From NCBI RefSeq assembly GCF_000424545.1, contig NZ_AUKC01000019.1, positions 1-64,000 on the forward strand: a DNA stretch of 64,000 nt. Direction: 5' to 3'. A program made the translations under genes and the position numbers. Below, in pieces: positions 15,866-63,258 of the stretch. The notes beneath the pieces are model-generated. The model had not been told where the DNA came from, searched no databases, and worked only from the letters and a program-made list of their open reading frames with translations. Numbering within the stretch: the stretch's first letter is position 1; every line of letters begins with the position of its first letter. This DNA is from Butyrivibrio sp. NC3005 (GTDB lineage: Bacteria; Bacillota; Clostridia; Lachnospirales; Lachnospiraceae).

Positions 15866-15975
15866 ATGTTTTATTTTTGTGTTGCTTTCGTGCCCCGCAA
15901 CAATTAAATACTATACAGGATTAGTTTTGATTCGTCAAGCACTTTTTTGAAATTTTTTCAAAAAAATTTTACCAA

Positions 15976-16162
15976 GACTTTTTGCTTTCATATAGTCCGT
16001 TTTGCTGTTTGTATATTTCGTCGCAGACCCGCTTTCGCTTGATTATAAACGTAATGGTTCTAAGGTTCTAAAATACAGAACCATAAGAACCAACGTTTAT
16101 AAACAGTTCTGCTCATGAAATATTACAAGCCAGCAAAACTCATCTACCAAATATAAGAAGTC
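15976..16162. repeat. 187-nt nested imperfect palindrome
   Basis: Successive arms pair from outside in: GACTT (15976) with AAGTC (16158); GTTTTGCTG (15999) with CAGCAAAAC (16131); GTATATTTC (16011) with GAAATATTAC (16117); GCAGA (16023) with TCTGC (16108); TTATAAACGT (16043) with ACGTTTATAA (16093); and two GGTTCT (16056, 16064) with two AGAACC (16077, 16086). All are in nested order and separated by bulges. It has no open frame worth calling. It may be a structured RNA or a MITE-like relic. It ends exactly where the 145-bp element begins. Confidence 0.6.
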
Positions 16163-16306
16163 ATGACTTTTTGTCACTTACATTCAGAAACTCGCATTTA
16201 CTGCGAGTTTCGTGAGAACAAAAGTCAAGCGGCAAACTGGCCCAAGGCGAAGCCTTTTTAAATGGCCAGTTTGCGTAGTTTTTGGAACGCAGTGACAAAA
16301 ATCTAT
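16162..16306 (+). repeat. 145-bp structured repeat element, copy 1
   Basis: Non-coding element with a second copy at 62999-63143, same orientation, 141/145 identical. Predicted fold: outer stem TTTTTGTCACT (16168-16178) with AGTGACAAAAA (16291-16301); hairpin 1 GAAACTCGCA/TGCGAGTTTC (16187-16196, 16202-16211); hairpin 2 GCAAACTGGCC/GGCCAGTTTGC (16232-16242, 16264-16274) topped by AAGGC-GAA-GCCTT. It lies 3' of trhP and just after the palindrome at 15976-16162. No family recognised. Confidence 0.8.
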
Positions 16307-16320
16307 AGGTTTTTGTCACT
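16291..16320 (-). terminator. Hairpin after trhP made from the repeat's right arm
   Basis: AGTGACAAAAA (16291-16301) and TTTTTGTCACT (16310-16320) form a perfect 11-bp stem with an 8-nt loop, ten nt downstream of the trhP stop. Read on the minus strand it ends in GTCACT rather than a T run, so termination strength is uncertain. Bases 16310-16323 duplicate the repeat element's left arm. Confidence 0.5.
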
Positions 16321-16329
16321 TACTAATGC

Positions 16330-17580
16330 TCATCCTCTGACTTTACCATTCTGCGGAGCGTGGATTCTAAGAATGTCATTTACTTCTGGTTTTACAGACA
16401 AATCAACGTACACAATCTGCTGTGGATGAGGTGCGCTTTCCTGACTGGTGCCATCTTCCGCATAGATTCCAAGAACCTTTGTCTCGATATCTCTTCCATC
16501 AGTCTTCATTATCTCGATTGTTTCACCAACAGAAAACTTATTACGCTGTTCAAGTCTTGCCTTTCCATCCTTAGTAATATCTCCTACTATTCCAAGATAT
16601 GTATATTCATTTACATAGGTATTAGAATCGTAAATTTGTGTTTCTTCGTTAGGCTTACCATAATAGAATCCTGTAGTAAACTGACGATATGTACACTTGG
16701 CAATTTCATCTTTATACCAATCCATATTTGACTGATACTTTTCAGGAGACTCGAAATAATCGTCAATTGCGCGTCTGTATGTTCTTGCAACAGTTGCTAC
16801 ATATAAAGCTGTCTTCATACGACCTTCAATCTTCAAACTATCGATACCCGCATCAACCAGATCTGGAAGATGGTCTACCATGCACAAATCCTTACTGTTA
16901 AAAATAAATGTTCCGCGCTCATTTTCATAGACTGGAAGATATTCTCCTGGTCTTGACTCTTCTACAACTGCATACTTCCATCTACACGGATGTGTACACG
17001 CACCTTTATTGGCATCTCTGCCTGTAAAATAATTTGAAAGCAGACAACGTCCTGAATAGGAAATACACATTGCGCCATGAATAAATGCTTCGATTTCCAA
17101 GTCATCCGGAACATGCTTTCTTATTTCCTTTATCTCATTAAGAGAGAGCTCTCTTGCGCATACTACACGTTTTGCGCCCATTTTATACCAAAAATTAAAG
17201 GTTTCATAATTTGTATTATTTGCCTGGGTTGAAATATGAATCTCAAGTTCAGGACACACTCTCTTGGCAATCGAGAACATGCCCGGATCTGCGACTAATA
17301 CTGCATCAGGCTTAAGCTCTGCCAACTCTTTAAAATATTTCTCTGCTGCCTCTAAATCATAATTGTGTGCCATGATATTAGCAGTAACATGAATATGTAC
17401 GCCATGTTCATGTGCAAACTTTATGCCCTCAGCCATTTCCTCTTTAGAGAAATTGTGAGCTTTTGCACGAAGGCTAAACGCCTGTCCACCAATGTATATA
17501 GCATCTGCTCCATAATTAACAGCTGTTTTTAATACTTCCAAATTATTTGCCGGAATCAGCAATTCTGGTTTATTTCTCAT
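16330..17580 (-). CDS. trhP: U32 family tRNA hydroxylation protein TrhP
   Basis: A 416-residue peptidase-U32 protein. Family members next to trmR (YrrN/YrrO of Bacillus, YegQ/TrhP of E. coli) make 5-hydroxyuridine at the wobble base of certain tRNAs using prephenate-dependent chemistry. The N-terminal barrel carries the U32 signature EAFIHGAMCISYSGRCLLSN, with further cysteines in GACTHPC that could hold an iron-sulfur cluster, and a C-terminal beta-barrel domain is present. Bacillus has two consecutive U32 genes here (yrrN, yrrO); this genome has one. Its start lies three nt behind trmR, the methyltransferase for the same base. Confidence 0.88.
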   Translation of the reverse strand: MRNKPELLIPANNLEVLKTAVNYGADAIYIGGQAFSLRAKAHNFSKEEMAEGIKFAHEHGVHIHVTANIMAHNYDLEAAEKYFKELAELKPDAVLVADPGMFSIAKRVCPELEIHISTQANNTNYETFNFWYKMGAKRVVCARELSLNEIKEIRKHVPDDLEIEAFIHGAMCISYSGRCLLSNYFTGRDANKGACTHPCRWKYAVVEESRPGEYLPVYENERGTFIFNSKDLCMVDHLPDLVDAGIDSLKIEGRMKTALYVATVARTYRRAIDDYFESPEKYQSNMDWYKDEIAKCTYRQFTTGFYYGKPNEETQIYDSNTYVNEYTYLGIVGDITKDGKARLEQRNKFSVGETIEIMKTDGRDIETKVLGIYAEDGTSQESAPHPQQIVYVDLSVKPEVNDILRIHAPQNGKVRG

Positions 17581-62638: not shown

Positions 62639-62998
62639 TTTTTTCCTCCTACTTAAAAATAGAATTATTACTATCGCTACTTTTATTGAAAAAGCAGCCA
62701 ATAATCCTTTCGCGCTCGGATTTGCCAATTTAAGCGTGAAAAATTATGCTAAAACATAAAATTATAGCCTGCAATATCATGCTAACACTTCAATAGTTTT
62801 ATGTCAATTTATCATAAAAAATCTTAATTTAATTTACTTTTTTTATATACAGTTCACAACTATTTATTTCACTATATTTCGAAGCAGATAACCATACTCC
62901 TTATAGGTTTTATCAATTATTTATTCTAGTGATTCTTTTTATCAGTAATTGTCACTCAACTATCTTTTCTCCCAATAATAATCTAACATTTAGTGATG
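62639..62998 (-). promoter_or_regulatory. nifJ upstream region
   Basis: No gene visible. A -10-like TATAAT is at 62761-62766 (minus strand), without a good -35 at the normal distance. Two direct repeats ATGCTAANAC (62746-62755 and 62779-62788, 33 bp apart) flank it and may bind a regulator. Confidence 0.4.
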
Positions 62999-63143
62999 CA
63001 TGACTTTTTGTCACTTATATTCAGAAACTCGCATTTACTGCGAGTTTCGTGAGAACAAAAGTCAAGCGGCAAACTGGTCCAAGGCGAAGCCTTTTCAAAT
63101 GGCCAGTTTGCGTAGTTTTTTGAACGCAGTGACAAAAATCTAT
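62999..63143 (+). repeat. 145-bp structured repeat element, copy 2
   Basis: Same element and orientation as 16162-16306. Four substitutions relative to copy 1: two in single-stranded linkers, one in the internal loop, and one C to T in hairpin 2 that changes a G-C into a G-U pair. Placed between the divergent nifJ and ferredoxin genes. It lacks the extra left-arm copy that follows copy 1. Confidence 0.8.
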
Positions 63144-63258
63144 CTATTTATAAACAAAAAATAATAAAGCAAAAATGTCATTTTATAAAATGCGTATTTT
63201 ATGCGCTTTTTTTCAATTTAAAAAAATGTCATTTTTTTGTAAGCGATAACTAACAAAC

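Follow-up and report, generated by a model that had tools for sequence, protein, structure and literature searches.

Two nearly identical segments, at 16162 to 16306 and 62999 to 63143, recur on the same strand of the window analyzed here, a 64,000-nucleotide stretch of the Butyrivibrio sp. NC3005 genome (hereafter the host). They raise the question of whether a structured RNA or a mobile DNA element lies behind the repetition. The initial annotation left both options standing, described the sequence as present twice, and proposed a genome-wide count, a covariance model with a search for covarying pairs, and an inspection of target-site duplications. Here, we assign a probability of roughly 0.74 to the reading that this sequence, termed element A, is a non-autonomous, MITE-like mobile DNA element, mobilized in trans, with a hairpin core that acts as DNA.

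Two copies in the window and their surroundings

The two segments align without gaps and are equal at 141 of 145 positions, with four differences, as originally reported. Their right ends were placed correctly, and their left ends one base too early: the leading C lies outside the element, and the true borders are 16163 to 16306 and 63000 to 63143. Elements of this type abut in chains with two related families, B and C, neighbors overlapping by the two bases AT. The features around the two copies are as follows.

16163 to 16306, plus strand: copy 1 of element A, 144 bp, from AT to AT, with borders set from AT-sharing chains and tandem copies; covariance model match 16161 to 16308, 138 bits
63000 to 63143, plus strand: copy 2 of element A, from AT to AT, standing alone; covariance model match 62998 to 63145, 128 bits
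15974 to 16164, minus strand: element C to the left of copy 1, profile match 15979 to 16155, border by eye
16168 to 16178, plus strand: left terminal inverted repeat TTTTTGTCACT, inverted partner at 16291 to 16301, weakly conserved as a stem in relatives
16291 to 16301, plus strand: right terminal inverted repeat AGTGACAAAAA, inverted partner at 16168 to 16178, weakly conserved as a stem in relatives
16305 to 16321, no strand assigned: half-site ATAGGTTTTTGTCACTT, facing outward from the right border of copy 1

Copy 1 lies beside the C element, between a tRNA-Gln and another gene, which we take to be U32 peptidase-like, and has the AT at 16163 to 16164 in common with that C element. The left border of the C element appears degenerate by eye, with AA in place of AT. 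Half-site ATAGGTTTTTGTCACTT ends near the stop codon of a minus-strand gene (16330 to 17580). We take it to have belonged to the original target; comparable half-sites flank other chains. Copy 2 is flanked by genes that, from their translations, we presume to encode a pyruvate:ferredoxin oxidoreductase-like protein and a ferredoxin-like protein.

Copy number, companion families and distribution

A search of the host assembly (3.87 Mb, 93 contigs) did not bear out the description of the sequence as present twice. The genome holds roughly a hundred copies, a large family far beyond the two in the window. The assembly search returned at least 50 matches, with 40 of the 168 candidates scored. Across the whole genome, the right-end motif matches 126 times (reversed control 1), a count that includes outer half-sites and truncated copies, the left-end pattern 91 times (control 1), and the GGCGAAGCC pattern 104 times (control 1). 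Profile searches over 534 kb of host stretches, chosen around matches, found 115 A matches (71 nearly full length), 69 B matches (47) and 65 C matches (32). Segmental duplication of one locus is ruled out by the many copies at unrelated sites.

The end motif of A is carried by both companion families, B with a length of about 126 bp and C with one of about 190-198 bp; examples lie at 15974 to 16164 in the window and at L064 2685-3006. The B ends look like self-pairing hairpins that are also found alone, and by eye their arms change together in some copies (TTATTG/CAATAA, TTCTTG/CAAGAA).

Beyond the host, a covariance model recognizes the element in at least 60 of 79 Butyrivibrio genomes, and in at least 65 of 397 Lachnospiraceae genomes. 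The latter span at least 56 of 334 genera and include the host together with a second Butyrivibrio genome. The E-values of this model are rough; with strict filters and a capped number of scored candidates, these genome counts are lower bounds. Element A matches one plasmid record, pNP243 of B. fibrisolvens D1. Plasmid searches with B and C, a plasmid search with a copy from another genus, and a pattern search of viral contigs gave no match. Copies of the other-genus type were observed in five unannotated phage records from human feces (MT836459.1, MT837311.1, MT839789.1, MT836432.1 and MT839453.1). In one further genome (G029, L041 1470-1670), an element sits amid a long inverted repeat (...GACGTATCAAATTGACTCATT).

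A covarying hairpin core

The 145-bp sequence folds better than all 200 of 200 shuffles on either strand (z = -6.2 on the plus strand, -7.8 on the minus strand). Its core consists of three local hairpins, here given for copy 1 with the covariation seen in the wider alignment A3 described below.

16187 to 16211, plus strand: hairpin 1, arms GAAACTCGC and GCGAGTTTC; in helix 1, 7 of 9 pairs show changes on both sides
16232 to 16274, plus strand: hairpin 2, arms GCAAACTGGCC and GGCCAGTTTGC, with an inner stem at 16244 to 16256 and a GAA loop; in helices 2 and 3, 15 of 16 pairs show changes on both sides
16277 to 16304, plus strand: hairpin 3, the right-end motif paired with its own internal inverted copy; in helix 4, 13 of 13 pairs show changes on both sides and 87.7% of cells are paired

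Two of the hairpins, one of 10 bp and one of 11 bp tipped by GGCGAAGCC, had been recognized correctly from the letters. The four differences between the copies had been described as compatible with the structure. Not all of them are neutral: position 16284 is G in copy 1 and T in copy 2, and the T disrupts a G-C pair that is conserved in the third hairpin (columns 130 and 142: GC in 22 rows; of two further rows, one has UC and the other a gap). The proposed outer 11-bp stem has its inverted partners in place, and is mainly a terminal inverted repeat. In the 24 aligned sequences, the paired share of its cells is 61.4%, against a shuffle mean of 55.8% (one of 500 shuffles as high) and 59.8% when the stem is slid by one column; the corresponding figure for the three local hairpins is 92.9%. 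This test is weak because the left-end alignment is shaky.

Two alignments describe the core. Alignment A1 comprises 24 copies from 19 genomes and yields three hairpins; an inner stem lies within the second. Of its 38 pairs, 21 show changes on both sides (122 cells), with 92.9% of cells paired against 33-41% in slid controls. Alignment A3, with 58 distinct rows that include a few partial ones, extends to members from other genera; 94.2% of its cells are paired against 34-42% when slid, and 35 of the 38 pairs show changes on both sides (575 cells). A3 favors the structure because it was fitted to the covariance model, which A1 was not. Covariation across genera is thus strong, and an unpaired stretch, CGTGAGAAnATGATTC, is conserved across genera as well.

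The chemistry of the pairs offers a further criterion. G-U pairs are tolerated in RNA and poorly paired in DNA. Of the 1312 standard pairs in helices 1-3, 19 are G-U (1.5%). Helix 4 has 34 of 611 (5.6%), which is nearer to the tRNA level: 38 tRNAs from the analyzed sequences, folded by minimum energy, have 80 of 911 (8.8%). Four partial or spurious A3 rows were excluded from this count and kept in the covariation count. The scarcity of G-U pairs in helices 1-3 leads us to read the core as a DNA-level structure.

The paired changes could also reflect palindrome correction, that is, replicative template switching between arms, rather than structural selection. As arm-to-arm copying predicts, the changes in helices 1-3 are nearly all full Watson-Crick double changes with few G-U intermediates. 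Palindrome correction alone, however, would not keep the number, order, spacing and loops of the hairpins across many genera, and we regard it as unlikely, though a serious contender.

Borders, chains and targets in Butyrivibrio

The borders of the element are precise. With borders placed solely by profile, 54 of the 55 complete A copies in the host have AT on both sides, as have 41 of the 43 complete B copies. Among relatives, it is present at 70 of 71 left borders and 69 of 71 right borders, likewise placed by profile. IS630-type TA duplication is ruled out: the dinucleotide in common is AT, and junctions such as GTCATGAC contain no TA.

Sequences outside the borders resemble the element itself. 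In the 41 of 120 chains whose outer ends were recognizable, both flanks weakly repeat the element's end motif, AT-A-N-N-T-T-T-T-T-(G/A)-T, and the two-sided target consensus is AT-ANNTTTTT. This consensus is evidence on the flanks only, because the end pattern used to select the chains already starts with AT. In relatives, the left flanks (n=64) read AAnAAA(A/T)G(T/C)-AT, close to the right end of the element, CAAGAATG(C/T)AT, and the right flanks (n=61) read AT-ANNTT, more weakly conserved than the left. These flanks derive from 72 of 87 copies retained after duplicate removal; flanks resembling another copy were left out, and copies without AT near an end were passed over, which the profile-placed border counts include. 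The target thus resembles a right end-AT-left end junction. Mutual pairing between left and right flanks (7.8 of 20) is hardly above that of random pairings (7.2 of 20). Free-standing palindromic targets were also considered and rejected: of 37 palindromic sites, 35 had sequence examined and 34 of these sit at an element border, so no clear empty palindrome was found.

Abutting copies are strongly polar within a family. All five full A pairs in the host are head to tail, as are 10 of 11 when truncated copies are included, and all three full B pairs. In relatives, nine abutting A pairs lie on the same strand and one, which involves a partial copy, on opposite strands, two loci that occur twice being counted once. 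A and B also meet right-to-right and left-to-left, and polarity between families is therefore not strict.

One interspecies locus, about 96% identical between genomes G008 and G068, captures a single unit as the difference. G008 carries one copy followed by AT-AAGAATTTAATACGG; G068 carries the same first copy, AT, a second copy of a different subfamily, and AT-AAGAATTTAATACGG. The two genomes thus differ by one whole copy plus AT, which represents either a gain in G068 or a precise loss in G008. The right flank is common to both for about 56 bp, after which G008 has about 2 kb of other DNA. A recombinant origin of the G008 copy looks unlikely because the right end of the first copy is kept. 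This is the one clean locus comparison, two further ones being too rearranged to use. The proposed inspection of target duplications accordingly yielded AT at this locus and, as set out below, 8 bp in members of other genera.

Exact 8-base direct repeats occur near the borders of 13 of 72 Butyrivibrio copies (control 7.3%), or 8 of 57 without tandem copies (control 5.3%), a small excess for which tandem copies do not account. At seven or more matches there is no excess (34 of 72 against 47.5%; 23 of 57 against 44.5% without tandem copies).

A fixed 2-bp AT with half-sites on both sides, a target that resembles the right-left junction, and head-to-tail tandems would also be expected of a serine-type recombinase cassette that uses AT as its crossover dinucleotide and integrates in circular form at sites similar to its own junction. 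We judge this account of the Butyrivibrio element unlikely, while giving it real weight: no recombinase is linked to the element, its insertion sites are numerous and weakly matching, and members in other genera carry 8-bp duplications.

Members in other genera

Genomes of four other genera (G327, G353, G450 and G171) carry the same core with the same spacing, and ends that read GTAAC(T/A)GTTCAG or close to it. In these members, too, the right end pairs with an inverted copy of itself inside the element. G457, a fifth genome, carries AT-type ends. Perfect 8-bp direct repeats stand at the borders of 12 of 27 other-genus copies, or 13 with one shifted by a base (L333), in a count that required similar ends and missed a repeat visible by eye at L332. 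A looser scan found 16 of 27, against 3.6% in shuffled pairings. A solitary right-end hairpin of about 28 bp also carries 8-bp repeats (L337 10797-10824).

Two accounts of the IS66 family describe ends that start with GTAA and 8-bp repeats (PMC11946415, PMC12888890). Both hallmarks of an IS66-derived MITE are found in the members of the four other genera; they are lacking from the Butyrivibrio copies, including those in the window, and no IS66 transposase is linked to the element. A crude IS66 transposase motif scan of 1030 ORFs in 28 loci found none. Judging solely by their GTAA ends and 8-bp repeats, the GTAAC-ended members are most likely served by an IS66-type DDE transposase.

Genomic position

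The element often sits close behind genes. For 87 chains with a gene on both sides, the neighbors are convergent in 32 cases, on the same strand in 45 and divergent in 10; the 218 background gaps comprise 53, 126 and 39, respectively. Where a chain adjoins the 3' end of a gene, that end lies within 50 bp in 89 of 139 cases; for 5' ends the count is 20 of 77. These counts follow a simple ORF rule applied to sampled stretches, with the background taken from the same stretches and 11 ORF-overlapping chains excluded. On host contig C51 (L143 2148-2733), the first bases of an A copy supply the stop codon of a gene, presumably GNAT-like. Elsewhere (L064 3005-6472), two inverted half-sites ATAGATTTTTGTCACTTT flank a pair of genes that by eye encode an ABC transporter, an arrangement that is either two targets by coincidence or a cargo unit.

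Relative to same-strand neighbors, A lies on the same strand in 21 cases and on the opposite strand in 18, which indicates no preference. This balance bears on the possibility that the core is a mobile structured RNA gene, spread by its ends and with an RNA function of its own. The very good fold, the strong covariation together with conserved unpaired CGTGAGAAnATGATTC across genera, and a G-U share in helix 4 near that of tRNAs are what such a gene would show; the low G-U share of helices 1-3, the lack of strand bias and the Rfam results speak against it, and we consider it improbable. At curated thresholds, an Rfam scan of the window returned only the nearby tRNA, and a known RNA family is ruled out for the window and 14 loci; at E up to 10, only sub-threshold matches appeared. 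The initial statement that no named family matches thus holds for Rfam at these thresholds and for the non-subscription literature searched, in which no description of the element was found. As to the choice first offered between a structured RNA and a MITE/REP-like element, the copies, AT borders, locus difference, chains and tandems, and 8-bp duplications uphold a mobile element, and the few G-U pairs in helices 1-3 and the absence of strand preference disfavor the RNA.

Search for an enzyme or autonomous partner

No enzyme could be tied to the ends in searches for DDE_3, rve, serine recombinase and Y1 families. In the host, DDE_3 produced one match, below cut-off, and rve three broken or partial matches. 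Serine recombinases gave 12 matches, none enclosed by the end motif as judged by eye. These 12 include an element that by eye is IS607-like and is truncated at five contig ends (L148-L152). It is multi-copy in the host but has other ends, and is ruled out as the mover.

Within 2.02 Mb of mostly Butyrivibrio, partly overlapping sequence and 0.38 Mb from elsewhere, no autonomous element was recognized. Similar end pairs 0.6-3.5 kb apart occur 14 times in the 2.02 Mb (control 0). They were rejected as an autonomous element, the four of 14 inspected enclosing ordinary genes.

Y1_Tnp matches number ten in the host. These loci, with up to 1.5 kb of flank, contain no pair of element ends and one single motif match (L078); six were inspected by eye, and TnpB-like ORFs lie near three. 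Movement as single-stranded DNA, an early suggestion for this sequence, would, if driven by a Y1 transposase as in REP/REPIN-like or IS200/IS605-type elements, fit the hairpins at the ends, the head-to-tail tandems, the solitary B hairpins, the solitary right-end hairpins of other genera and the somewhat stronger conservation of left over right flanks, but is very improbable in view of the classic 8-bp target duplications in other-genus members, AT on both sides of the extra copy in G068, the same inverted motif on both ends and both flanks, and the lack of a pair of element ends at any host Y1 locus.

A model for insertion and the role of the core

For a MITE-like DNA element mobilized in trans, the following scheme may apply in Butyrivibrio. 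The end motif AT-NNN-TTnTTG, present at both ends, would be the binding site for a recombinase or transposase supplied in trans. Insertion would occur where the target resembles the junction that the element's right and left ends would form, and the cuts on either side of AT would be two bases apart. The right end itself would serve well as the left half of a target, so the next copy would tend to land head to tail. The core hairpins would act as DNA, either as an extruded cruciform or as a single strand, and not primarily as RNA; they may help the element to move or to be tolerated, often just behind genes.

The three-hairpin core is kept while ends and insertion differ between groups, so the folded core is perhaps useful to the element, and this pattern suggests that it does something for it. 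A broader proposal, which we hold only tentatively and would sooner doubt than assert, is that one folded-DNA hairpin module serves two transposition systems in Lachnospiraceae, with the module and not the ends conserved: in at least four other genera it would have IS66-like ends with 8-bp duplications, and in Butyrivibrio new ends with a previously undescribed AT-specific 2-bp system.

Relation to known systems and significance

Bacterial MITEs include Correia/NEMIS, RUP, Nezha and ERIC. Element A resembles them in falling within 100-200 bp, in having no coding capacity, and in its many near-identical, intergenic copies with precise ends. Its terminal inverted repeats are short, and imperfect in relatives. 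A short target duplication is seen as AT at one locus and as 8 bp in the 12 of 27 other-genus copies. RU-1/RU-2 provide a further comparison among bacterial MITEs (PMC2759123). Unlike these, A has a hairpin core that covaries across many genera, and one core combined with two kinds of ends and duplications, AT being the type in Butyrivibrio.

With REP/BIME/REPIN sequences and their RAYT proteins (PMC2817692, PMC3116915, PMC3733652), A has in common palindromic units, chains and an extragenic position. It differs in that no Y1 gene occurs with a pair of element ends, and in the target duplications of other genera.

IS30-type target choice involves a 2-bp spacing, head-to-tail dimers and insertion next to the element's own ends. 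All three are seen in A, but the rve matches in the host are only broken or partial, and the two annotated IS30 copies on plasmid pNP243 have other ends by eye. What sets the element apart is a hairpin core in many genera with two sets of ends and two modes of insertion.

Covariation-based discovery of RNAs in Lachnospiraceae can pick up DNA elements, and the present case serves as a warning in this regard. The element may also become a marker or genetic tool for rumen and gut Lachnospiraceae. Small repeats are usually treated as ends with filler between them; in this one, conservation lies in the supposed filler. The fold is recognizable in dozens of genera, and ends and insertion type vary among those examined closely. 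As such, the element provides a testable case for the role of internal DNA structure in a mobile repeat.
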